From Flavobacteriales bacterium (GTDB lineage Bacteria > Bacteroidota > Bacteroidia > Flavobacteriales > Flavobacteriaceae): a stretch of DNA of 63,184 bases. Under the pieces are notes generated by a model, which saw nothing but the letters and a program-made list of their open reading frames with translations, was not told where the DNA came from and ran no database searches. Numbering within the stretch: position 1 is the first letter of the stretch; each line of letters opens with the position of its first letter. Below, one piece after another: positions 37,722 through 49,507 of the stretch. Where the stretch lies: assembly GCA_011525015.1 (NCBI GenBank), contig WTJC01000013.1, positions 1 through 63,184 on the forward strand, in the 5' to 3' direction. The translations under genes and the position numbers were made by a program.

Positions 37722-38531
37722 TTAGACTTTGACTTTTGCGATGACCCGAACAGGTGCCCCACTACCCTCTTCGATTTTCATGGGCAATGCAGTTATTGAA
37801 AACCCGTCTTCAGGAAGTTTGTTCAATTGCGTCAAATTTTCAAAGGCAGGAATGTTTTGTCCTAATAGTATAACGTGACTTTCGAATAGACTTGACTGAC
37901 CATAATCAATACTTGGTGTATCAATACCAACAGAGGCAATGTTTCTATTTTCGACTAACCACTGCGCTGCTTCTTTAGACAGACCTGGAAAATGTAATTC
38001 TTTAACAGCATCTTCTCCTCTTTGGTCAGTACCCATATAAGCGATTGCATCTGGATAGAATTTGGAGTACCCTGTTTCGAAAAGTACAATGCTCTGATCT
38101 GGAATCATTTTTTGATGGGTGTTTTCCCAATTTTTAATATCCTCTATACTGATGAGATAATCTTGATCTTCTAAGGCATTTGCACTAACATCTATTTTAA
38201 TTGCAGCTCCAACCAAGCGATAAAGCGGAATTTCATCTACGGATTGCCCTTGTTCATTAAAATGAATAGGAGCATCAATATGAGTTCCTCCATGTTCGGC
38301 CGTTCTAAAATCATTCGCACAATAGAAATATCCTTTATCGGTGAACCCTTTAAAAACAGTATCTAACTGAAAGGGAGTTGCGGTAACCCAATACAAGGTC
38401 TCACCTGAGTACGAATGTGATAAATCGATCATTTCATAAGCGTAGTCATCAACCTTATTTTGACAACTAGATAATAGCACTATTAAAAGAACCTCTGCGA
38501 TAAGTGTGGATTTAAATAAATACGTTTTCAT
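37722..38531 (-). CDS. Cyclase family lipoprotein (kynurenine formamidase-like)
   Basis: 269 residues. A lipoprotein signal peptide ends at LLSSC (C23). The mature domain is of the cyclase/KynB family with the metal-binding EHGGTHIDAPIHF motif and a later IDTPSIDYG region. Related enzymes hydrolyse formamides, isatin or amides with a Mn or Zn centre. The substrate here is unknown; it acts at the membrane surface facing the periplasm. Its promoter region contains a near-consensus TACCTTTA on the minus strand. Confidence 0.84.
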   Translation of the reverse strand: MKTYLFKSTLIAEVLLIVLLSSCQNKVDDYAYEMIDLSHSYSGETLYWVTATPFQLDTVFKGFTDKGYFYCANDFRTAEHGGTHIDAPIHFNEQGQSVDEIPLYRLVGAAIKIDVSANALEDQDYLISIEDIKNWENTHQKMIPDQSIVLFETGYSKFYPDAIAYMGTDQRGEDAVKELHFPGLSKEAAQWLVENRNIASVGIDTPSIDYGQSSLFESHVILLGQNIPAFENLTQLNKLPEDGFSITALPMKIEEGSGAPVRVIAKVKV

Positions 38532-40456: not shown

Positions 40457-41791
40457 CTAAAGTTTAGGCTCCCACCCGTTTTCATAACTGCGCTTCCACG
40501 ACTCCATGGCTTTGTCGTTATTTAAAACACGAGCCGTATTCGGATCAATCACAAGGGTTTCACCTGCATCTTGTGCCATATTACCCAAATGACATATCAT
40601 TGTCGAAATAGCCGCGTCTTGAATATCAGCGCGTAATGACTTATCATAGCGTATGCCATCAAAGAAGTTGCGCACATGATCAACATCCAAACCACTCATT
40701 CCCATGGTATCTGTTGATGATGCTGCACCCTTGTAGCGCTCAAATTCAAATTTCAAAGGATTACCTTCTAAATCGAAAAGTTTATAAAACCCACGATCAA
40801 GCTGAATGGTCCCTTTGGTTCCATAAATGGTTGCCCCGCGACCTGGACGCTCTGGTTTCATAATTATTCGACTATGTCCCGTCCATGTGATAAACTTCTC
40901 GCCGGGATAGGTAAAGGTTACCTGTTGGTTGTCTACAAATTCCCAGTCGTCATCAAAAGTGTATTTGCCCCCGAAAGAGGTTACCCGCTCTGGAATATCC
41001 ACGCCAAGAGCCCATCGACAAATATCTATTTCATGGGTTCCATTATTGTGGATTTCACCTGTCCCCCAGGTTCTAAACCAATGCCAGTTGTAAGGGTGTA
41101 CATTGTCTCTATAATCTTCCCTTGGCGCAGGACCCTGCCATAAATCCCAATCCAGGGTCTTTGGCACATCCACTATTTTTCCTTTGCCGATAGAGGTTCT
41201 CTTGTTAGAGTAATAGGCTTCTCCTTTATACACCTCGCCAATGATTCCATTTCTAATATCTTCTATAGCCATGATTGAAGTTCTTGCTGAGCGCTGCTGA
41301 TTCCCCATCTGTACTTTTTTACCGTACTTTTTTTGAGCAGCCATCAATAGGTCATTCTCATGCGGATTGTGACTACAGGGCTTTTCGATATAAACATGTT
41401 TTCCGGCTTGCATGGCCATAATAGCCATAGGTGCGTGCCAATGCTCAGGAGTAGCAATGAATACAGCGTCGACATCCTTATCTTCTAAAACTTTTCTAAA
41501 ATCTTTTTCGACTTTTGGAATATATCCAATGTTTTCTTCACACCATTTATTATGCTCTTCAATAATCGTATCATCCACATCACAGTTGTAGAGCACTTTG
41601 GTATTTTCTATAGCGTTGATGGCAATGATATGTGCCTTGGCTCTGCTTCGCACACCAATTACCGCGCAATTGATGTGATCATTAGCGCCCAAAACGTTTG
41701 GATGAAAGATGTTTGAAAAAGCTGGAGTTGATATTCCGAGTCCAACACTTCCGGCTACAGTATTTTTTATAAAATTTCGTCTTGTTCCCAT
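40457..41791 (-). CDS. Tat-exported Gfo/Idh/MocA family oxidoreductase
   Basis: 444 residues. A twin-arginine-type signal (RRNFIKNTVAGSVGLG) suggests export in folded form with bound cofactor. The Rossmann domain opens with INCAVIGVRSRA, and the EKPCSHNPHE motif carries the conserved Lys; a C-terminal alpha/beta domain follows. Exported members of this family oxidise or epimerise sugars or glycosides, often at C3, with NAD(H). It is 9 nt downstream of a double DUF1080 lipoprotein gene and divergent from glucuronate-catabolism genes, so it may act on glucuronate-containing glycosides. Substrate is inferred only. Confidence 0.88.
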   Translation of the reverse strand: MGTRRNFIKNTVAGSVGLGISTPAFSNIFHPNVLGANDHINCAVIGVRSRAKAHIIAINAIENTKVLYNCDVDDTIIEEHNKWCEENIGYIPKVEKDFRKVLEDKDVDAVFIATPEHWHAPMAIMAMQAGKHVYIEKPCSHNPHENDLLMAAQKKYGKKVQMGNQQRSARTSIMAIEDIRNGIIGEVYKGEAYYSNKRTSIGKGKIVDVPKTLDWDLWQGPAPREDYRDNVHPYNWHWFRTWGTGEIHNNGTHEIDICRWALGVDIPERVTSFGGKYTFDDDWEFVDNQQVTFTYPGEKFITWTGHSRIIMKPERPGRGATIYGTKGTIQLDRGFYKLFDLEGNPLKFEFERYKGAASSTDTMGMSGLDVDHVRNFFDGIRYDKSLRADIQDAAISTMICHLGNMAQDAGETLVIDPNTARVLNNDKAMESWKRSYENGWEPKL

Positions 41792-41800
41792 TTGACAATT

Positions 41801-43183
41801 TTAGTTAGTTAGTTCTTTTATCTTGATGTTCTTGAAATGAACAAGATCGCCGTGATCTTGAAGAAGAATTTGACCTTCTTTCAATTCTCCGAAATTGGGC
41901 CAAACCACGTATTTACTTTCAGAAACAAGAGTTCTAAATTCTGGGGTCATTCTCTCGTATTCTAAGACCTTTGCACCGTTTAAATAGTGCGTTACCTGAT
42001 TGTTTTTTGAGACTATATGAGCACGGTTCCATTCTCCAATTGGTTTTGTAGGCTTTTCAACATCCGCTTGAATCAAATCGTAAAGAGAAGCTAAGGTTCT
42101 ACTTCCTTCATGATTGCCCAATTTAGCATCCGGATGCAATTCGTCATCGAGAATTTGATACTCTAATCCTATTGAAGAACCAGCCCCTTTATTGATATTG
42201 GTATCTACATAATACTTTATTCCACTATTGGCTCCAGGAGTTAACTTGAAATCAACCATAAGCTCGAAGTCACTGTAATTTTTAAGTGTAACGATATCAC
42301 CTCCTGCTTCAGACTCTCCACCACCACTTGCTAAAACGATGAGTTCGCGATTTTTAATTTCCCAACCCTGCTCAGGAAAAGCTTCTAATTTCGCTCCTCT
42401 CCAACCTTTGGTCGTTTCACCGTCCCATAGCATTTCCCAGCCAGAATCAAGCTCATTTTTTGTGAGTTTGTTGATTTTATCAATCAGAGGTAAAGATGTC
42501 TTTCTGCTGTATGCGTCCACATTTTCGGTGAGAATATTGATATTTCTCCATCTGATCTCAGTTCCTTCTTCTTGATTTTCTCCTATAGAATGTACTTGAA
42601 GACCAATGAAGCCTTCTGCGGTTTGGTCATCCATTAAATGTGACGCTTCGGCTCCATTAATCCAAGTTTTAATGGTATCGCCAATAGCTTCAATTCGATA
42701 ATGATTCCACTGATTTTGCTTGAAAGCACCTTTGGCTGTTGTGTTTTTATCGTCTAAGGGATGAAGCCATCCTCGTCTTGCTTCGTCGTATACACCTGCG
42801 CTCCATGCTCTATCCGAAGGATCTATTTCGATTTGATAGCCGTGAACGCGACCGTTTTGGTAATGAGGTAAACTTTCACTTCGAATTTGAATACCTGAAT
42901 TCATAGAAGAGTCAACTAAAAACTCTAGTTCAAGAATAAAATCACCGTAAATTGAATCGGTTACTAAAAATGAATTAGGGGTGTCGTGTACGGTAGTTCC
43001 AACAATTTCACCATCACGAACGGTATAAATTGCTTTTCCCCCTTTTTGAGACCATCCTGTCAATGAAGTTCCATCAAAAAGCGTAATCCAAGGGGTTTGG
43101 TCTTTTTGCATATCACATCCGACAAATAATACAACGCATAGAATGCAAGACAAACGAAAAAAACTGTTTTTAAAATTGTTCAT
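41801..43183 (-). CDS. Lipoprotein with two DUF1080 (3-keto-disaccharide hydrolase) domains
   Basis: 460 residues. A lipobox at VGC (C23) marks it as a lipoprotein. Two DUF1080 domains follow: domain 1 (about 30-215) opens with LFDGTSLTGW, domain 2 (about 245-458) opens with LWDGETTKGW. DUF1080 is a concanavalin-like fold, and characterised members hydrolyse or cleave 3-keto-glycosides. It is upstream of the Gfo/Idh/MocA oxidoreductase, 9 nt away, so the pair could oxidise a sugar at C3 and then cut the linkage. Transcribed divergently from uxuA. Confidence 0.87.
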   Translation of the reverse strand: MNNFKNSFFRLSCILCVVLFVGCDMQKDQTPWITLFDGTSLTGWSQKGGKAIYTVRDGEIVGTTVHDTPNSFLVTDSIYGDFILELEFLVDSSMNSGIQIRSESLPHYQNGRVHGYQIEIDPSDRAWSAGVYDEARRGWLHPLDDKNTTAKGAFKQNQWNHYRIEAIGDTIKTWINGAEASHLMDDQTAEGFIGLQVHSIGENQEEGTEIRWRNINILTENVDAYSRKTSLPLIDKINKLTKNELDSGWEMLWDGETTKGWRGAKLEAFPEQGWEIKNRELIVLASGGGESEAGGDIVTLKNYSDFELMVDFKLTPGANSGIKYYVDTNINKGAGSSIGLEYQILDDELHPDAKLGNHEGSRTLASLYDLIQADVEKPTKPIGEWNRAHIVSKNNQVTHYLNGAKVLEYERMTPEFRTLVSESKYVVWPNFGELKEGQILLQDHGDLVHFKNIKIKELTN

Positions 43184-43218
43184 TGTTGATATAGTTAGTG
43201 CATAAAAAGTACAAAATA

Positions 43219-43232
43219 TTTAAACGCTTAAA
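43219..43232. promoter_or_regulatory. Candidate LacI-type operator between the DUF1080 and uxuA operons
   Basis: The 14-bp sequence TTTAAACGCTTAAA is a near-palindrome around a central CpG (12 of 14 positions symmetric), the shape of LacI-family sites. It lies 36 bp before the DUF1080 start and about 120 bp before uxuA. The other clear element in this 166-bp gap is listed separately. Confidence 0.4.
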
Positions 43233-43277
43233 AACATTTATTCTAAATCCTAAATGAAATTGTACGCACGAGCTGAA

Positions 43278-43314
43278 TTGCACTCGATTGAGCAACTAAA
43301 AAAGTGTCGAGCAA
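43278..43314. promoter_or_regulatory. Second candidate operator region upstream of uxuA
   Basis: An imperfect inverted repeat TTGCACTCGATTGAGCAA (43278-43295, outer arms TTGC/GCAA) is followed by TCGAGCAA (43307-43314), which repeats the right arm TTGAGCAA (43288-43295) with 7 of 8 identities at 19-bp spacing. It lies 36-72 bp before the uxuA ATG, where a repressor or activator would be expected. Confidence 0.35.
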
Positions 43315-43349
43315 ATTAATTACCTTAACCAAACAATTAGTTGAATTCA

Positions 43350-44555
43350 ATGATTTTTGAAGAAAGTTGGCGTTGGTATGGTCCTCACGACCCTATAAGT
43401 CTCAGTCAGATCAGACAGGCAGGAGCGAGCGGCATCGTCAATGCCTTGCACCAAATTCCCGTTGGAGCGCTTTGGTCTGTAGAAGAAATACAAAGGCGCA
43501 TCGATCTTATTGAAAAAGAAAATTCAACATCTACACCTCTTAAATGGATTGTTGTTGAAAGCCTTCCTGTGCATGAAGACATCAAGCAGGGTAGAGAAAA
43601 CAGAGACGAACTCATTGAAATTTATTGCCAAAGTATTCGAAATTTGGCCCGCTGTGGGGTTCGTGTCATTTGCTACAATTTTATGCCTGTTTTAGATTGG
43701 CTCAGAACAAATGTTCGCAAAGAATTACCAAATGGCAGCACAGCTCTCTACTTTCATCCTTTGGATTTGATCATTTTTGATTTGTACATTTTAAAAAGAC
43801 CTGAGGCCACAAAATCCTATGATGCAGTGGATATTAAAAAGGCTCAAGAGCGCTATTCGAATTTTACAGATCAAGATATAAGTTTACTAAAGGAAAGTAT
43901 TCTAATGGCACTGCCTGGGGATGTAAAAGGATTTACTTTAGAAAAACTCAAGCTCGGTTTAGAGGCTTATGCCGATATAGACGAAAACCAACTAAGAGCA
44001 AATTTGATTTATTTCTTAGAACGCGTCATTCCTGTCGCCGCACAAGAGGGTGTCTGTATGGCTATTCACCCTGATGACCCTCCTTGGTCTGTTTTCGGTT
44101 TGCCCAGAGTTGTAGGCTCTCAATCTGATCTAGAGTATATTTTCTCAGCCGTACCTGATGTTCACAACGGATTAACCTATTGCACCGGAAGTCTTGGAGC
44201 TCATCAATCAAACGATTTAAAAGCACTCTTACTCAATTTTGAGGAGCGCATACACTTTGTGCATTTGAGATCAACACAGCGGAACAAAGACGGCTCCTTT
44301 TTTGAAGCCAACCATCTTGAAGGTGATGCTGGTCTGGTAGAGCTGATCACAATTTTTTATGAAATTTCAAATCGCAGACAAAAGCAAGGAAAAACAGCAT
44401 TACCTATGCGACCAGATCACGGCCATCAAATGCTTGACGATCTTGACAAACAATACTATCCTGGCTATTCAGCTATAGGCAGATTAAAGGGCCTCGCTGA
44501 ACTCAGAGGTGTGGCTTCAGCTATTACGCATTTAAAACAACAGTACAATTCATGA
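43350..44555 (+). CDS. uxuA: Mannonate dehydratase UxuA
   Basis: 401 residues from ATG at 43350 (a TTG at 43341 adds three residues). It dehydrates D-mannonate to 2-keto-3-deoxygluconate. The N-terminus ESWRWYGPHDPISLSQIRQAGASG and the metal-site HPDDPPWSVFGLPRVV (about 245-260) are diagnostic. It is the first gene of a coupled set with an SDR and uxaC, and overlaps the SDR gene by 4 nt (ATGA). Confidence 0.95.
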   Translation: MIFEESWRWYGPHDPISLSQIRQAGASGIVNALHQIPVGALWSVEEIQRRIDLIEKENSTSTPLKWIVVESLPVHEDIKQGRENRDELIEIYCQSIRNLARCGVRVICYNFMPVLDWLRTNVRKELPNGSTALYFHPLDLIIFDLYILKRPEATKSYDAVDIKKAQERYSNFTDQDISLLKESILMALPGDVKGFTLEKLKLGLEAYADIDENQLRANLIYFLERVIPVAAQEGVCMAIHPDDPPWSVFGLPRVVGSQSDLEYIFSAVPDVHNGLTYCTGSLGAHQSNDLKALLLNFEERIHFVHLRSTQRNKDGSFFEANHLEGDAGLVELITIFYEISNRRQKQGKTALPMRPDHGHQMLDDLDKQYYPGYSAIGRLKGLAELRGVASAITHLKQQYNS

Positions 44556-45367
44556 AAGATCTTTTTGACTTAAACCATAAAGTTGCGATTATTACAGGAG
44601 CTGGCGGTGTTCTCGGAGGAGAAGCTGCTCGATATCTGGCTGCCCAAAATGTGCGTGTTGTTCTATTGGGAAGAACACTTCAAAGCCTCGAAAAAAACGC
44701 TGCTTCAATCATTGATAAAGGAGGGAGTGCTTTGGCGCTAAGTTGTGATGTGCTCAATCGCAGTGAACTAGAAGCTGTAAGAGATAAAGTGCTGAATAAC
44801 TATGGTGCAATTGATATCTTAATCAATGCTGCAGGCGGTAATAAAGCCGGTGCAGTAGTGACTCCAGAACAAACGTTTTTTGAAATGTCGATGGACGATT
44901 TAACCGAAGTGGTTGATCTAAATTTATACGGCTCTGTTTTACCGAGTATGGTTTTTGGTGAAACCATGGTCGCACAAAAAAGTGGTGTTATCATCAATTA
45001 TTCATCCATGTCAGTCGCTGAGGTCATCACGCGCGTTGCTGGTTATTCGGCATCCAAGGCGGCTATTGAAAACTTCACCAGATGGTTGGCCGTTGAATTC
45101 GCCCAAAAACACGGTGAAGGCGTGCGAGTCAACGCAATTGTTCCTGGTTTTTTTATTGGCGATCAAAACAGAAAATTACTTCTTAACGAGGATGGTTCAT
45201 TAACCTCCAGAGGAGAATCTATAATTCAAAACACCCCATACAAGCGTTTCGGAGAAGCTCATGAGCTCAATGGTACCCTGCATTATTTGTGCGCTGAGGC
45301 CTCGAGTTTTGTTACAGGCGCTGCACTTGCTGTGGATGGAGGTTTTCAAATTTATTCAGGAGTCTAA
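44552..45367 (+). CDS. SDR oxidoreductase, probable D-mannonate/fructuronate dehydrogenase
   Basis: 271-residue SDR. The NAD-binding motif is TGAGGVLGGEAARYLA, NAAGG is in the middle, and the catalytic triad with YSASKAAIENFT is intact; the C-terminus ends TGAALAVDGGF. Its place between uxuA (4-nt overlap) and uxaC predicts that it reduces D-fructuronate to D-mannonate with NAD(P)H. The enteric enzyme UxuB belongs to another family (polyol dehydrogenase), so this is a non-homologous replacement. The role rests on context. Confidence 0.85.
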   Translation: MKDLFDLNHKVAIITGAGGVLGGEAARYLAAQNVRVVLLGRTLQSLEKNAASIIDKGGSALALSCDVLNRSELEAVRDKVLNNYGAIDILINAAGGNKAGAVVTPEQTFFEMSMDDLTEVVDLNLYGSVLPSMVFGETMVAQKSGVIINYSSMSVAEVITRVAGYSASKAAIENFTRWLAVEFAQKHGEGVRVNAIVPGFFIGDQNRKLLLNEDGSLTSRGESIIQNTPYKRFGEAHELNGTLHYLCAEASSFVTGAALAVDGGFQIYSGV

Positions 45368-45379
45368 ACCTTATTACTT

Positions 45380-46774
45380 ATGTTTCTTTCTTCTTCTTTT
45401 TTATTGGAATCTGAAATTGCCGAAAGACTCTATTTCGAATTTGCTGAACCTTTACCTATTATAGATTATCACAATCACCTTTCTGCCCAGCAGGTCGCTG
45501 AGAATCACAAGTTTGAAAATCTCACCCAAATATGGCTCGATGGAGACCACTATAAATGGCGTGCTATGCGCCTTTTTGGAATAGAAGAGCGATACATTAC
45601 GGGTGAAGCTGACGATTATCAAAAATTTACAGCATGGGCAAAAACGGTTCCCCACACCTTGAGAAATCCACTCTATCATTGGACGCACATGGAACTCAGA
45701 AAACCCTTTGGTATTGACGAGCTCCTCAGTGAAAAGACAGCAGAAGCTATTTATCAAAAGGCGACCACAATGTTGCAAGACGACGACTTTAGCACGAGAT
45801 CGTTACTTGAAAAAGCTAATGTCGAGGTGATTTGTACCACTGATGACCCCTTGGATGATTTGATATCACATCAGAAAGTTTCCAAGGATACTTTATCATT
45901 TGAAATGCGCCCGACATGGCGCCCTGATAACGCTTTAAAAGTGGATGACCCTGCTCATTTTGCTGCCTATACAAAACAATTAGAAAAACTGACCTCAACG
46001 GTCATTAATGATTTAGACGATTATTTAGTTGCTCTTGAAAAAAGACATGACTTTTTTGAGCAATCTGGATGTAAAATTGCCGATTGCGGACTCTCTCACC
46101 TCAACTTTGTTCCTTATAACGCCACACAAGTAGAAGCTGCATTTAACGAGCTTATTCAAGGCAAAGAAGTCAATAAGGAGTCACAAGAACACCTCTTGAG
46201 CTTTTTATTACTTGAACTCGCTAGAATGAATCACAAAAAAGATTGGGTTCAGCAATTTCACCTTGGAGCACTTAGAAATAATAACGAGCGTATGTTCAAA
46301 CTACTCGGAGCAGATGCAGGTTTTGATTCTATAGGAGATGAGCTACAAGCGGCTGGAATGTCTCAGTTTTTTAATGCCCTCGACCGAACCGACCAATTGG
46401 CCAAAACCATTGTATACAACTTAAATCCCGCACAAAATGAAGTATTTGCTACTATGATGGGTAATTTCAATACCGGTGGAATTCGCGGAAAAATGCAACT
46501 CGGAGCCAGTTGGTGGTTTTTAGATCAATTAGACGGAATGGAAAAGCAAATCAACACCGTGTCTAATATGGGACTCTTGAGCTGTTTTGTGGGTATGCTT
46601 ACTGATTCAAGGAGTTTTCTATCCTTTTCAAGGCATGAATACTTTAGGCGATTACTTTGCAATATGTTGGCTAAAGATATTTTACAAGGAAAAATTCCTG
46701 AAGATTACGACTTGGTTGGCTCCATGATTCAAAACATTTGTTATTACAACGCTAAAAGCCATTTTAAGTTTTAA
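45380..46774 (+). CDS. uxaC: Glucuronate isomerase UxaC
   Basis: 464 residues, the usual UxaC length. It interconverts D-glucuronate and D-fructuronate (and galacturonate/tagaturonate). The N-terminal metal motif PIIDYHNHLSAQQVAENH and the later RMFKLLGADAGFDSIGD and NPAQNEVFATM motifs are typical. It lies 12 nt after the SDR gene and overlaps the TRAP receptor gene by one base. With uxuA and the SDR it completes the route glucuronate to 2-keto-3-deoxygluconate. Confidence 0.96.
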   Translation: MFLSSSFLLESEIAERLYFEFAEPLPIIDYHNHLSAQQVAENHKFENLTQIWLDGDHYKWRAMRLFGIEERYITGEADDYQKFTAWAKTVPHTLRNPLYHWTHMELRKPFGIDELLSEKTAEAIYQKATTMLQDDDFSTRSLLEKANVEVICTTDDPLDDLISHQKVSKDTLSFEMRPTWRPDNALKVDDPAHFAAYTKQLEKLTSTVINDLDDYLVALEKRHDFFEQSGCKIADCGLSHLNFVPYNATQVEAAFNELIQGKEVNKESQEHLLSFLLLELARMNHKKDWVQQFHLGALRNNNERMFKLLGADAGFDSIGDELQAAGMSQFFNALDRTDQLAKTIVYNLNPAQNEVFATMMGNFNTGGIRGKMQLGASWWFLDQLDGMEKQINTVSNMGLLSCFVGMLTDSRSFLSFSRHEYFRRLLCNMLAKDILQGKIPEDYDLVGSMIQNICYYNAKSHFKF

Positions 46775-47745
46775 TGAAAAAACAAATAGTCTTTATTGCC
46801 ATTTCACTGCTGCTTTTAAGCGGATGTCAACTCAGCAAGGTCAAAACCATAAAACTTGCTCACGGTTTAGATGTTACACATTCAGTGCACCTGGCTCTTG
46901 AGTTCTTTGGTGAAGAAATCCATCGAATTTCTAACGGGCAATTAAAGGTTGAAATTTATCCGAATTCTCAGTTGGGCTCAGAGCGTGAAATTCTTGAGCT
47001 CATTCAAATTGGCAGTCTACACATGACCAAGGTCTCTGCGGCAACGCTAGAAAACTTTGCGCCTAAATCTAAAGTCTTAGGGCTTCCCTATTTGTTTAAA
47101 AATAGGGCGCATGCCTTTCGTGTATTAGACGGCGAGATAGGTCAAAATCTTCTTGAAGACAGTCAGAGGTATCGCCTAAAAGGTCTTGGATATTACGACG
47201 CCGGTTACCGCAGTTTTTATACGAAAGAAAGGCCGGTTGATCATCCAGATGAGTTAAAAGGTCTAAAAATTAGGGTCATGGAGAGTGTTACCGCCATGAA
47301 CATGGTCAGAAGTTTTGGAGGTGCCCCCACCCCTATTTCATGGGGAGAATTGTACACTTCATTACAGCAAGGTGTGGTTGATGGTGCAGAAAATAATCCA
47401 CCAAGTTTTTACCTCTCCAAACATTATGAAATTTGCAAGTATTATTCACTTAATGAACACACCTATTCTCCTGACGTGATCATTATCGGAAATTCTTTTT
47501 GGAATGAATTAAATGAGGAGCAACAACTTTGGATGTCTAAAGCCGTAAATGCTTCTATCCATTTTCAGCGTAAACTATGGGCCGAACACGAGGCAAATGC
47601 GCTTAAAGAAGTGGTCAAGGCAGGTGTAGAAATTGTATATCCTGAAAAGGATGTTTTTATGGAATTGGCACAAAAAGTGCACGAGCAGTACCTTCAAGAC
47701 GAGGAGCTCAAATCAATCATAACCCAAATTAAGGCATTAGAATGA
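46774..47745 (+). CDS. dctP: TRAP transporter substrate-binding protein DctP-type
   Basis: 323 residues. A lipoprotein signal ends at LLLSGC (C18), so the binding protein is membrane-anchored. The fold is that of DctP: AHGLDVTHSVHLALEFFGEEI, the substrate-carboxylate Arg in ELKGLKIRVMES, and QQGVVDGAENNP. Family members bind acidic substrates such as uronates. It overlaps uxaC by 1 nt (TAATG) and dctQ by 4 nt. Context predicts D-glucuronate or an unsaturated uronate as ligand. Confidence 0.93.
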   Translation: MKKQIVFIAISLLLLSGCQLSKVKTIKLAHGLDVTHSVHLALEFFGEEIHRISNGQLKVEIYPNSQLGSEREILELIQIGSLHMTKVSAATLENFAPKSKVLGLPYLFKNRAHAFRVLDGEIGQNLLEDSQRYRLKGLGYYDAGYRSFYTKERPVDHPDELKGLKIRVMESVTAMNMVRSFGGAPTPISWGELYTSLQQGVVDGAENNPPSFYLSKHYEICKYYSLNEHTYSPDVIIIGNSFWNELNEEQQLWMSKAVNASIHFQRKLWAEHEANALKEVVKAGVEIVYPEKDVFMELAQKVHEQYLQDEELKSIITQIKALE

Positions 47746-48209
47746 GTTTAAAATCAAGACTTGACCGAATACTAAGTTCATCTCTAATACTCATTTTGGC
47801 CCTAATGGTACTCAACGTTTTATGGCAAGTATTCAGCCGTTATATACTTCAGACACCTTCTTCTTTTACTGATGAGTTATCGCGTTATCTGATGATTTGG
47901 ATAGGAATTTTAGGTGCAGCATATGTTTCGGGTATGAATGCACATGTAAGAATTGATGTTTTTGTATCACGCCTTTCGATGAAAATGCAGAAAAAGATTC
48001 AACTTATGGTTCGCATCGCAATTGCTTTTTTTGCCCTTGTAGTGCTTATTATTGGCGGAAGCCGATTGGTGTATATCAGCTTTATATTAGGCCAAAAAAG
48101 CCCTGCCCTTCAAATTCCTTTGGCTTATGTCTATCTGGTATTGCCTTTAAGCGGATGTATTATCATAATTTATAAGTTGTTAGAACACCTTAACCAAAAA
48201 TCGAACTGA
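47742..48209 (+). CDS. dctQ: TRAP transporter small permease DctQ-type
   Basis: 155 residues with four membrane helices, the small subunit of the TRAP permease. It includes SRYILQTPSSFTDELSRYLM near residue 25-45, a family hallmark. It overlaps dctP by 4 nt and lies 2 nt before dctM, so the three subunits are co-translated. Confidence 0.92.
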   Translation: MSLKSRLDRILSSSLILILALMVLNVLWQVFSRYILQTPSSFTDELSRYLMIWIGILGAAYVSGMNAHVRIDVFVSRLSMKMQKKIQLMVRIAIAFFALVVLIIGGSRLVYISFILGQKSPALQIPLAYVYLVLPLSGCIIIIYKLLEHLNQKSN

Positions 48210-48211
48210 GT

Positions 48212-49507
48212 ATGGAATACATTCCCGTAATGGTGCTTTTAATCAGCTTTATCTTTTTTCTCAGTTCGGGAACTCCTGTGGCATGGAGTATAGCATTATC
48301 TTCCTTTTTGACCATTTTGGTGAGCATTCCCTTTTTACCTGGCGTAACAACAATCGCACAGCGAATGGCAACTGGCCTAGACAGTTTTGCTTTACTGGCT
48401 ATTCCGTTTTTTATATTGTCTGGTCAATTGATGAAACACGGAGGAATAGCGAATCGCCTCATTGCATTTGCCAAAACCATTGTTGGAGCCTTACCTGGTG
48501 GTCTGGCACATATTAATATCATTGCGGCCATGCTTATGGGGGCTATTGCTGGATCGGCAATGGCTTCCGCCTCGGCAATGGGAAGCATTCTTGGCCCAGA
48601 AATGGAAAAAGAAGGCTATTCAAAAGAATTTGGAGCTGCGGTTAATATTACCTCCAGTACCATGGGACTTATTATTCCTCCAAGTAATATTTTAATCGTT
48701 TACGCCTTGGCCGGAGGTGGGCTTTCTATTGCATCGCTTTTTCTTGCCGGTTACATCCCTGGAATAATTACTGGGCTTTTTTTGATGATTGTTGCGGCCT
48801 TTTGGGCAAAAAAGAAAAAAATCCCCTTGGGAAAGCGAAGCACAATTTCCCAAGTGCTGCGTACTTTTTTAAACGCCTTACCCAGTTTGTTTCTTTTGTT
48901 TATTGTCATTGGTGGTATTGTAAGCGGTGTATTTACAGCTACAGAAGCCTCTGCTATTGCCGTTCTTTATTGTTTAGTACTCGGCTTAATTTATAGAGAA
49001 ATTAAGTGGAACAATTTGCCTCAAATTTTATTGGAATCTTCGGTAACATCAGCCGTTGTAATGCTTCTTATTGCGAGCTCTATGAGTATGTCATGGGTAA
49101 TGTCTTTTCAAAATATCCCCCAAGAACTAAGCATGGCCTTATTGACCTTAAGTGATAATCCTATAATCATTCTACTGGTGATTAATTTGCTGTTGCTATT
49201 TGTTGGGGTCTTTATGGATATGACCCCCGCGGTTCTCATCTTTACCCCTATTTTTCTGCCCGTTGTTACTTCCTTAGGGATGGATCCCATTCACTTTGGG
49301 GTGGTAATGGTACTTAATTTATGTATTGGTCTGTGCACCCCTCCTGTAGGCTCCGTTTTATTTGTGGGAGTCGGGGTAGCAAACACCTCAATTGAAAAGG
49401 TAATAAAACCCCTGATTCCCCTTTTTATCGCAATGGTGATTTCATTGTTTTTAGTAACCTACATTCCTTCTTTGAGTTTGTGGCTTCCTGAGCAGTGGGG
49501 TTACTAA
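48212..49507 (+). CDS. dctM: TRAP transporter large permease DctM-type
   Basis: 431 residues, with about 12 membrane helices. It is the transport subunit of the TRAP permease; uptake is driven by sodium. Hallmarks are ITSSTMGLIIPPSNILIVY, LGLIYREIKW and the FMDMTPAVLIFTPIFLPV motif. It closes the uxu-uxa-dct operon; no terminator hairpin is evident before the convergent DUF2200 gene, 16 nt away. Confidence 0.94.
   Translation: MEYIPVMVLLISFIFFLSSGTPVAWSIALSSFLTILVSIPFLPGVTTIAQRMATGLDSFALLAIPFFILSGQLMKHGGIANRLIAFAKTIVGALPGGLAHINIIAAMLMGAIAGSAMASASAMGSILGPEMEKEGYSKEFGAAVNITSSTMGLIIPPSNILIVYALAGGGLSIASLFLAGYIPGIITGLFLMIVAAFWAKKKKIPLGKRSTISQVLRTFLNALPSLFLLFIVIGGIVSGVFTATEASAIAVLYCLVLGLIYREIKWNNLPQILLESSVTSAVVMLLIASSMSMSWVMSFQNIPQELSMALLTLSDNPIIILLVINLLLLFVGVFMDMTPAVLIFTPIFLPVVTSLGMDPIHFGVVMVLNLCIGLCTPPVGSVLFVGVGVANTSIEKVIKPLIPLFIAMVISLFLVTYIPSLSLWLPEQWGY

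Follow-up and report, generated by a model that had tools for sequence, protein, structure and literature searches.

What is a predicted exported oxidoreductase doing next to an operon for glucuronate catabolism? The question is raised by a stretch of 63,184 bases, here called the window, that forms the first part of a 145,922-base contig (WTJC01000013.1) in the genome of a marine Flavobacteriales bacterium (2.17 Mb, 92% complete). In the window, genes for a Gfo/Idh/MocA oxidoreductase of the twin-arginine translocation (Tat) type, here Gfo, and for a lipoprotein with two DUF1080 domains, here D2, lie divergent from uxuA, a short-chain dehydrogenase/reductase (SDR) gene, uxaC, and the dctPQM genes of a tripartite ATP-independent periplasmic (TRAP) transporter. 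The association of the D2-Gfo pair with glucuronate genes is real, conserved and not the product of chance. As to function, we propose that the locus releases D-glucuronate from the glucuronide ends of polysaccharide fragments, by oxidation, elimination, hydration and re-reduction in the periplasm, and consumes it after TRAP uptake, and we lean, if only just, toward this proposal. Its parts differ in strength. Oxidation/elimination chemistry for the pair is probable, judging from the protein families; we infer that the substrate is a glucuronide, and specificity for glucuronides is a little better than even.

This gene set and arrangement had been proposed in the initial annotation, made from the sequence and its open reading frames, and all eight genes were confirmed, their coordinates matching the open frames exactly:

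40457..41791, minus strand: Gfo, Tat-type Gfo/Idh/MocA oxidoreductase of 444 aa (Pfam PF01408/PF22725), putatively a 3-dehydrogenase of glycosides (glucuronides), which might re-reduce the product as well
41801..43183, minus strand: D2, two-domain DUF1080 lipoprotein of 460 aa (PF06439 twice), a putative 3-keto-glycoside eliminase/hydratase
43184..43349, no strand: divergent intergenic region, with a tentatively LacI-like palindrome, TTAAACGCTTAA, at 43220
43350..44555, plus strand: UxuA, mannonate dehydratase (Pfam; NCBIfam TIGR00695 over cut-off)
44552..45367, plus strand: SDR, D-mannonate oxidoreductase (NF006132 over cut-off, 356 bits against 281)
45380..46774, plus strand: UxaC, glucuronate isomerase (Pfam; NF002794 over cut-off)
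46774..47745, plus strand: DctP, TRAP solute-binding protein, probably for glucuronate (Pfam; TIGR00787 over cut-off; residue spacing)
47742..48209, plus strand: DctQ, TRAP small permease (Pfam)
48212..49507, plus strand: DctM, TRAP large permease (Pfam)

D2 and Gfo, both on the minus strand, are separated by 9 bases; on the plus strand, adjacent genes among the six from uxuA to dctM overlap, or stand apart, by no more than 12 bases. The listed frame of UxuA opens with TTG at 43341; the ATG at 43350 is a more probable start.

Is this neighbourhood peculiar to one genome? The initial annotation had suggested comparing DUF1080-uxaC linkage across Flavobacteriaceae, and the comparison bears the linkage out. 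The family sample comprised 149 genomes, searched at a match threshold of E 1e-50, with species as rows and kinship uncorrected; D2 gave 50 rows at this threshold, four of them partial and two at 35-36% identity. D2 was found in 44 of the 149 genomes, UxaC in 55 and both in 39 (odds ratio 43). Within uxaC-bearing genomes, the window included, D2 lies no more than 20 kb from uxaC at 14 of 45 loci, where random placement over approximate genome sizes would give about 0.6; among these 14, 10 lie within 5 kb, nine are same-strand, and one is a half-length D2 match. A phylum sample of 296 genomes added 51 genomes with D2, of which 45 also carry UxaC and 7 have the two linked, against a random expectation of about 0.4; the 7 linked loci span four families, that of the window among them. 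As one control, single-domain DUF1080 genes have uxaC no more than 20 kb away at 1 of 62 places in uxaC-bearing genomes (99 matches listed), a count that leaves out long frames, D2 and lower-scoring matches and is biased downwards, since it omits the genes of loci L071, L072 and L074; with them it is 4 of 65. As another, xylA (xylose isomerase) is no more than 20 kb from D2 at 1 of 45 loci, one more (in genome G132) being at about 21 kb; the xylA rows used were 41 of 63, from genomes with D2 plus one.

The history of the linkage is also informative. In a phylogeny of 58 D2 proteins, from which the half-length D2 of genome G020 was left out and in which loci beyond 20 kb were scored as unlinked, the linked state (20 rows) requires 11 changes, at least nine of them on well-supported branches, and shuffled labels require about 17. 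The link between D2 and uxaC has therefore arisen or disappeared repeatedly, the pattern expected if selection acted on a common function. G064, the only genus mate in the sample, lacks a match to either D2 or UxaC at E 1e-50; a DUF1080 match in this genome lies in a 478-residue frame.

How are D2 and Gfo arranged elsewhere? D2 has a Gfo-type gene as its immediate neighbour, in every case on its own strand, at 55 of the 58 full-length loci from the sampled genomes and the window; 51 of the 55 are of the window's Gfo kind, the other four of another kind. Among the named loci, which are the best 80 of 537 (24 of the 80 under 20 kb), a Gfo-type gene lies within 600 bases of D2 at 72, UxaC or UxuA is in the flanks of 18 (17 at 40% identity or above), and 15 have at least two uronate genes. 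Clusters in which D2, uxu and TRAP genes share one strand occur at L067, L068, L073, L075, L131, L158, L160, L172, L181 and L193. In L067, L068 and L073 the order on one strand is SDR, uxuA, uxaC, dctPQM, D2, Gfo, with kdgK and kdgA inside the L068 cluster. L158 (Muricauda sp. M10) and L160 (an Allomuricauda metagenome-assembled genome, MAG) have, likewise on one strand, SDR, uxuA, dctPQM, D2, Gfo, another Gfo and uxaC. The D2-Gfo pair comes after dctM, without a change of strand, in L172 (Flagellimonas hymeniacidonis) and L181 (Robiginitalea sp. SC105). D2 stands between dctM and uxaC, with no adjacent Gfo, in L131 and in L193 (Membranihabitans marinus). The second Tat-type Gfo, called GfoC391 here (about 395 aa), often follows D2-Gfo (L158:12732-13900, L073:4574-5755), is present at 50% identity or above in 23 of the 80 named loci, and is possibly a 3-keto-sugar reductase.

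Some variants of these arrangements may be recorded here. In L071, L072, L074, L113 and L220, D2 is clustered with a Tat-type Gfo of another kind (about 452 aa), with DUF6807 and with a DUF1080 protein of one domain, and in L071, L072 and L074 this cluster is directly divergent from uxaC. A fusion of ThuA (PF06283) with DUF1080 is encoded at L123:2459-4027. D2 also turns up outside Bacteroidota, in MAGs that carry the labels Phycisphaerae (L182, 64% identity) and Sedimentisphaerales (L189, 62%), reflecting either transfer or a binning error.

What chemistry might D2 carry out? PF06439 matches D2 in two stretches with 294.5 bits, against a curated cut-off of 26.8. The best solved relative is 4jqt (BT3469; E 4e-153), which the D2 model (pLDDT 91.4) matches at Z 41.9 with 56% identity over 428 residues; the root-mean-square deviation of 14.3 is probably due to the angle between the domains. 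Domain 2 of the model resembles the 3-keto-glycoside eliminase/hydratases 9fbe and 8rr2 and the hydratases 8tda and 8v31 (Z about 29). His198 of domain 1 and His444 of domain 2, which align with each other in a profile alignment, are invariant in all 40 aligned proteins, so that neither domain looks dead. His444 also aligns, ungapped to the end, with the histidine of the QDHG motif of 8rr2, and because model residue 459 corresponds to entry residue 290 in the structure match, that histidine is residue 275. The H275N variant of a lyase lacks hydration activity (PMC13273386), and from the number we infer that this H275 is the residue aligned with His444. With a score above the PF06439 cut-off and an equivalent of His275, D2 may be classed as a putative eliminase/hydratase. 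Four other invariant residues, Arg101, Arg125, Arg136 and Lys323, were considered as carboxylate residues and set aside; the lysine is shared by the single-domain 3hbk and is no uronate marker.

Gfo combines the fold, the EKP motif and the twin-arginine signal of exported Gfo/Idh/MocA proteins. Its N-terminus reads MGTRRNFIK; the pattern R[RK]xF[IVL] is found in all 36 aligned proteins and the strict RRxF[ILV] in 33, and Gly46, Arg50, the EKP motif, His253 and Asp256 are invariant in the 36. D2 of the window carries the lipobox-like LFVGC. A lipobox by strict pattern is present in 19 of 40 D2 proteins, and among the other 21 some have a looser lipobox and others a signal-peptide-like start without the cysteine. 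The export of both enzymes, as first proposed, thus appears likely from their N-termini. The Gfo model (pLDDT 87.7) is closest to the Alistipes glucoside-3-dehydrogenase AL3 (8tdh, 8tdf; Z 40.7, 28-29% identity). The best NCBIfam match is the BT_2158_fam glycoside 3-dehydrogenase (NF058561), to residues 3-296 only; at 155.3 bits it is far below the cut-off of 750, and assignment of Gfo as a BT_2158_fam equivalog was rejected. Glucose-fructose and aldose-aldose oxidoreductases are also among the structural neighbours of Gfo. In these oxidoreductases one enzyme with a bound cofactor carries out both redox steps.

The presence of uxuA with an SDR that matches the D-mannonate oxidoreductase model identifies the cluster as the glucuronate branch, and no altronate gene is among the scanned genes of the cluster. 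Together with uxaC, these genes make up a glucuronate catabolic operon. DctP has 4n8y as its best match, and its solved relatives include 4n15, 4mhf and 4n91; of these, 4n91 and 4mhf are glucuronate binders, and 4n15 served as template for the glucuronate binder STM3169 (PMC7660916). Arg146, Arg167 and Asn207 of DctP are spaced by 21 and 40, and Arg150, Arg170 and Asn210 of STM3169 by 20 and 40, the equivalence being set by context and spacing and not from structure; DctP probably binds glucuronate, to judge from these residues. KdgK- and KdgA-like genes are found elsewhere in the genome, on contig C18.

How might these activities fit together? First, Tat-exported Gfo, with bound NAD(P), would oxidize C3 of a terminal glucuronosyl residue. 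Elimination and hydration would then fall to D2, whose two domains, both with the conserved histidine, might share the work between them or might each carry it out in full. Cleavage of this kind would yield 3-keto-glucuronate, which would have to be re-reduced before UxaC could use it. The scheme of oxidation, cleavage and uptake in the initial annotation is upheld as regards gene set, export signals and linkage; what it lacked is this re-reduction. Reduced Gfo, or in many relatives the second Tat-type Gfo, might reduce 3-keto-glucuronate to glucuronate, which would make the cycle redox-neutral. Finally, as the annotations suggest, DctPQM would import glucuronate, UxaC, SDR and UxuA would yield 2-keto-3-deoxygluconate, and KdgK and KdgA would complete the route. 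In the window's genome no orthologue of GfoC391 was found, the best match being the window's own Gfo at 31%.

One can imagine a bolder version, in which the pair is a widespread, redox-neutral uronosidase working without glycoside hydrolases (GH): a single Gfo both oxidizes and re-reduces, the D2 domains split elimination and hydration, alpha- and beta-glucuronides alike are cut in the periplasm, and intact glucuronate passes to the TRAP transporter of the same cluster, the pair taking the place of GH67, GH115 and enzymes like them in marine Bacteroidota with small genomes. We regard this version as unlikely. A point in favour of the main proposal is that no match to GH67 or GH115 was found in the window's genome, of which 92% is represented; other glucuronidases (GH2, GH79, GH88, GH105) were not searched.

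Several observations weigh against glucuronide cleavage by the pair. Thirty-one of the 45 D2 loci in uxaC-bearing genomes lie more than 20 kb from uxaC, and five unlinked loci (L084, L096, L102, L105, L114) share a neighbour block in which no tie to sugar use is seen. Three single-domain DUF1080 genes are near uxaC, in the D2-bearing clusters L071, L072 and L074. xylA accompanies D2 as often as uxaC does, each in 39 of 44 D2 genomes (odds ratio 29 for xylA), so that the presence association of D2 with uxaC in part reflects lifestyle, and presence or absence was set aside as stand-alone proof because xylA gives a similar association. In L132 (genome G369) D2-Gfo stands beside GH115, GH67, GH3 and GH28, with uxaC about 36 kb off, and the pair is therefore no simple replacement for GH67 and GH115. 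As to Gfo, the structure titled 'P2B11 Glucuronide-3-dehydrogenase' (8tdi) matches the model at Z 35.8 and 16% identity, at rank 19, and is absent among the best 60 of 65 and the best 60 of 75 solved relatives listed; equivalence of Gfo with P2B11 was not supported, 8tdi not being nearest among solved Gfo proteins. The nearest solved relatives of Gfo are glucoside-3-dehydrogenases, and it may prefer either glucuronides or glucosides.

Might the pair, then, act on neutral sugars? It could be a 3-keto-glycoside cleaver that is broad or of glucoside, xyloside or galactoside type and trims neutral sugars off glucuronate-containing polysaccharides (glucuronoxylan, ulvan-like polymers, arabinogalactan), in which case co-location with glucuronate genes would arise because the same polymer supplies both. 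We find this doubtful, and still the most serious contender. The closeness of Gfo to AL3 and the co-occurrence of D2 with xylA are what it would lead one to expect, as are the neighbours of D2-Gfo in relatives: xylA and an FGGY carbohydrate kinase in L078, the GH115, GH67, GH3 and GH28 genes of L132, GH43 in L135, and, in L109, a sulfatase fused to a GH78 alpha-L-rhamnosidase domain (L109:13226-16759). SusD genes adjoin the pair in L079 and KduI in L070. Such neighbouring enzymes point to glucuronate-bearing polymers, which fits glucuronide and neutral-sugar cleavage alike. Three results tell against neutral sugars: linkage of D2 to xylA is seen at 1 of 45 loci, against 14 of 45 for uxaC; among genomes that carry xylA, D2 and UxaC are still associated (odds ratio 18.5, p 8e-5); and the compact uxu/TRAP clusters of L067, L073, L158 and L160 have no other gene class between.

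Or are the substrates of the pair uronic acids, either free or modified, which it might for instance epimerize or activate through a 3-keto form, with no glycosidic cleavage? The presence of D2 without an adjacent Gfo in the uxu/TRAP clusters of L131 and L193, and linkage to a monosaccharide pathway with no one fixed polysaccharide locus, would suit such a role. We consider it quite improbable, since the solved DUF1080 relatives are titled eliminases or hydratases of 3-keto-glycosides, and the export signals on both proteins, with the lipobox on the window's D2, are those expected for glycoside processing. Further down the scale, D2 might be an ordinary hydrolase and Gfo functionally unrelated to it. 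A DUF1080 protein, THTE_1561, is indeed reported as an endo-xanthanase/lichenase (PMC10881899, PMC9007349), in the first of these articles as an ordinary endo-xanthanase, a further point against an oxidative route; the eliminase/hydratase histidine is invariant in D2, and a Gfo-type gene adjoins D2 at 55 of 58 full-length loci and, at 72 of the 80 named ones, is no more than 600 bases away, so that we hold this explanation to be very improbable. That the genes are chance neighbours, as the 31 D2 loci without linkage might suggest, is scarcely credible with 14 and 7 linked loci where about 0.6 and 0.4 are expected.

The surroundings of the locus add some detail. It does not qualify as a SusCD-based polysaccharide utilization locus, which would have genes of susC size and for SusD in the cluster: the frames from 36 to 54 kb reach at most 464 aa and so include no susC, and none of those scanned there matches SusD. 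The palindrome in the divergent promoter region occupies 43220-43231. Among the loci scanned, L130 has TTAACCGGTTAA in the region separating uxuA from Gfo, and a near form of the palindrome occurs in L078; with the palindrome in a matching place in L130 only, a common LacI-type operator is no more than a lead. A putative cyclase gene (PF04199) is found near the cluster, at 37722-38531, with no evidence tying it to the cluster. DUF1080 occurs at three places in the genome, this locus and contigs C41 and C9. The C41 cluster (L085, G000:C41 4613-10562) has two DUF1080 genes, two TIM-barrel (AP_endonuc_2) genes, a Gfo and a Nuc_H_symport-type transporter, and the C9 cluster (L086, G000:C9 9004-11730) two DUF1080 genes and a Gfo that scores 267 bits to BT_2158_fam, for which the cut-off is 750. 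Both resemble the known glucoside pathway.

If glucuronide cleavage by the D2-Gfo pair is borne out, Bacteroidota would have a recurrent oxidative route for removing glucuronic acid from plant and algal polysaccharides. The annotations 'Gfo/Idh/MocA' and 'DUF1080' would then hide this route, and predictions of glucuronate release based on GH counts would be too low. The proposal also offers a testable substrate for two-domain DUF1080 proteins, including the solved 4jqt, titled only 'putative glycosyl hydrolase'.

How does the locus compare with systems already described? A pathway of oxidation, elimination, hydration and reduction is said to have been reported by Nasseri et al. in 2024 (Nature 631:199), for BT2156-BT2160 of Bacteroides thetaiotaomicron and AL1-AL3 of Alistipes. 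The window shares with these the combination of a Gfo/Idh/MocA 3-dehydrogenase and a DUF1080 eliminase/hydratase, and the solved structures nearest to its proteins include those titled AL3, AL2 and BT2. Unlike them, the window has a two-domain DUF1080 protein, one Gfo, no TIM-barrel gene alongside, and glucuronate catabolism and TRAP genes as neighbours, and its Gfo scores 155 bits against the BT_2158_fam cut-off of 750. Deletion of BT2157 and BT2158 caused no growth defect on raffinose-family sugars (PMC11501099). A four-step route of the same kind has been described for C- and O-glucosides (PMC10628242), and in the levoglucosan pathway LgdA/B1/B2/C separate proteins carry out 3-oxidation, elimination, hydration and reduction (PMC7676230). 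The levoglucosan pathway acts on another substrate, and the window's eliminase/hydratase candidate is a DUF1080 protein. In Caulobacter, periplasmic hydrolysis of 3'-ketolactose has been proposed, with LacABC and a DUF1080 protein (PMC9007349). The sequence of periplasmic oxidation, DUF1080 cleavage and use of the freed sugar is like that proposed here; the differences are that membrane-bound LacABC oxidizes and that the sugars are neutral.

On the side of specificity, P2B11, known from the title of entry 8tdi, shares the Gfo/Idh/MocA fold and has a named activity on glucuronides; at the distance given above it is not nearer to Gfo than many family members. BT3469 (4jqt) shares the two-domain architecture of D2 at 56% identity, and its title names no tested activity. 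In a Maribacter proteome, a Gfo-superfamily protein called GH109 was highest on arabinogalactan and a mannonate dehydratase was expressed (PMC11036162), the excerpts showing no link to the D2-Gfo pair. Our literature search, which left most subscription journals outside, found no DUF1080-Gfo pair tied to glucuronate catabolism and TRAP uptake, nothing on a 3-keto-glucuronide or a 3-keto-disaccharide hydrolase and, to judge by titles, nothing on P2B11 or a glucuronide-3-dehydrogenase. The statement in the initial annotation that no such system had been described was nevertheless too strong, given that oxidative cleavage chemistry is described and that a structure titled glucuronide-3-dehydrogenase, 8tdi, was released in 2024. 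On the side of uptake, glucuronate TRAP systems of the STM3169 type, with homologues beside uxuAB/uxaC, share with the window the TRAP transporter, UxuA, UxaC and the carboxylate-binding Arg and Asn; the excerpts of that article (PMC7660916) do not mention an exported Gfo or a DUF1080 protein. The chemistry itself is known for glucosides.

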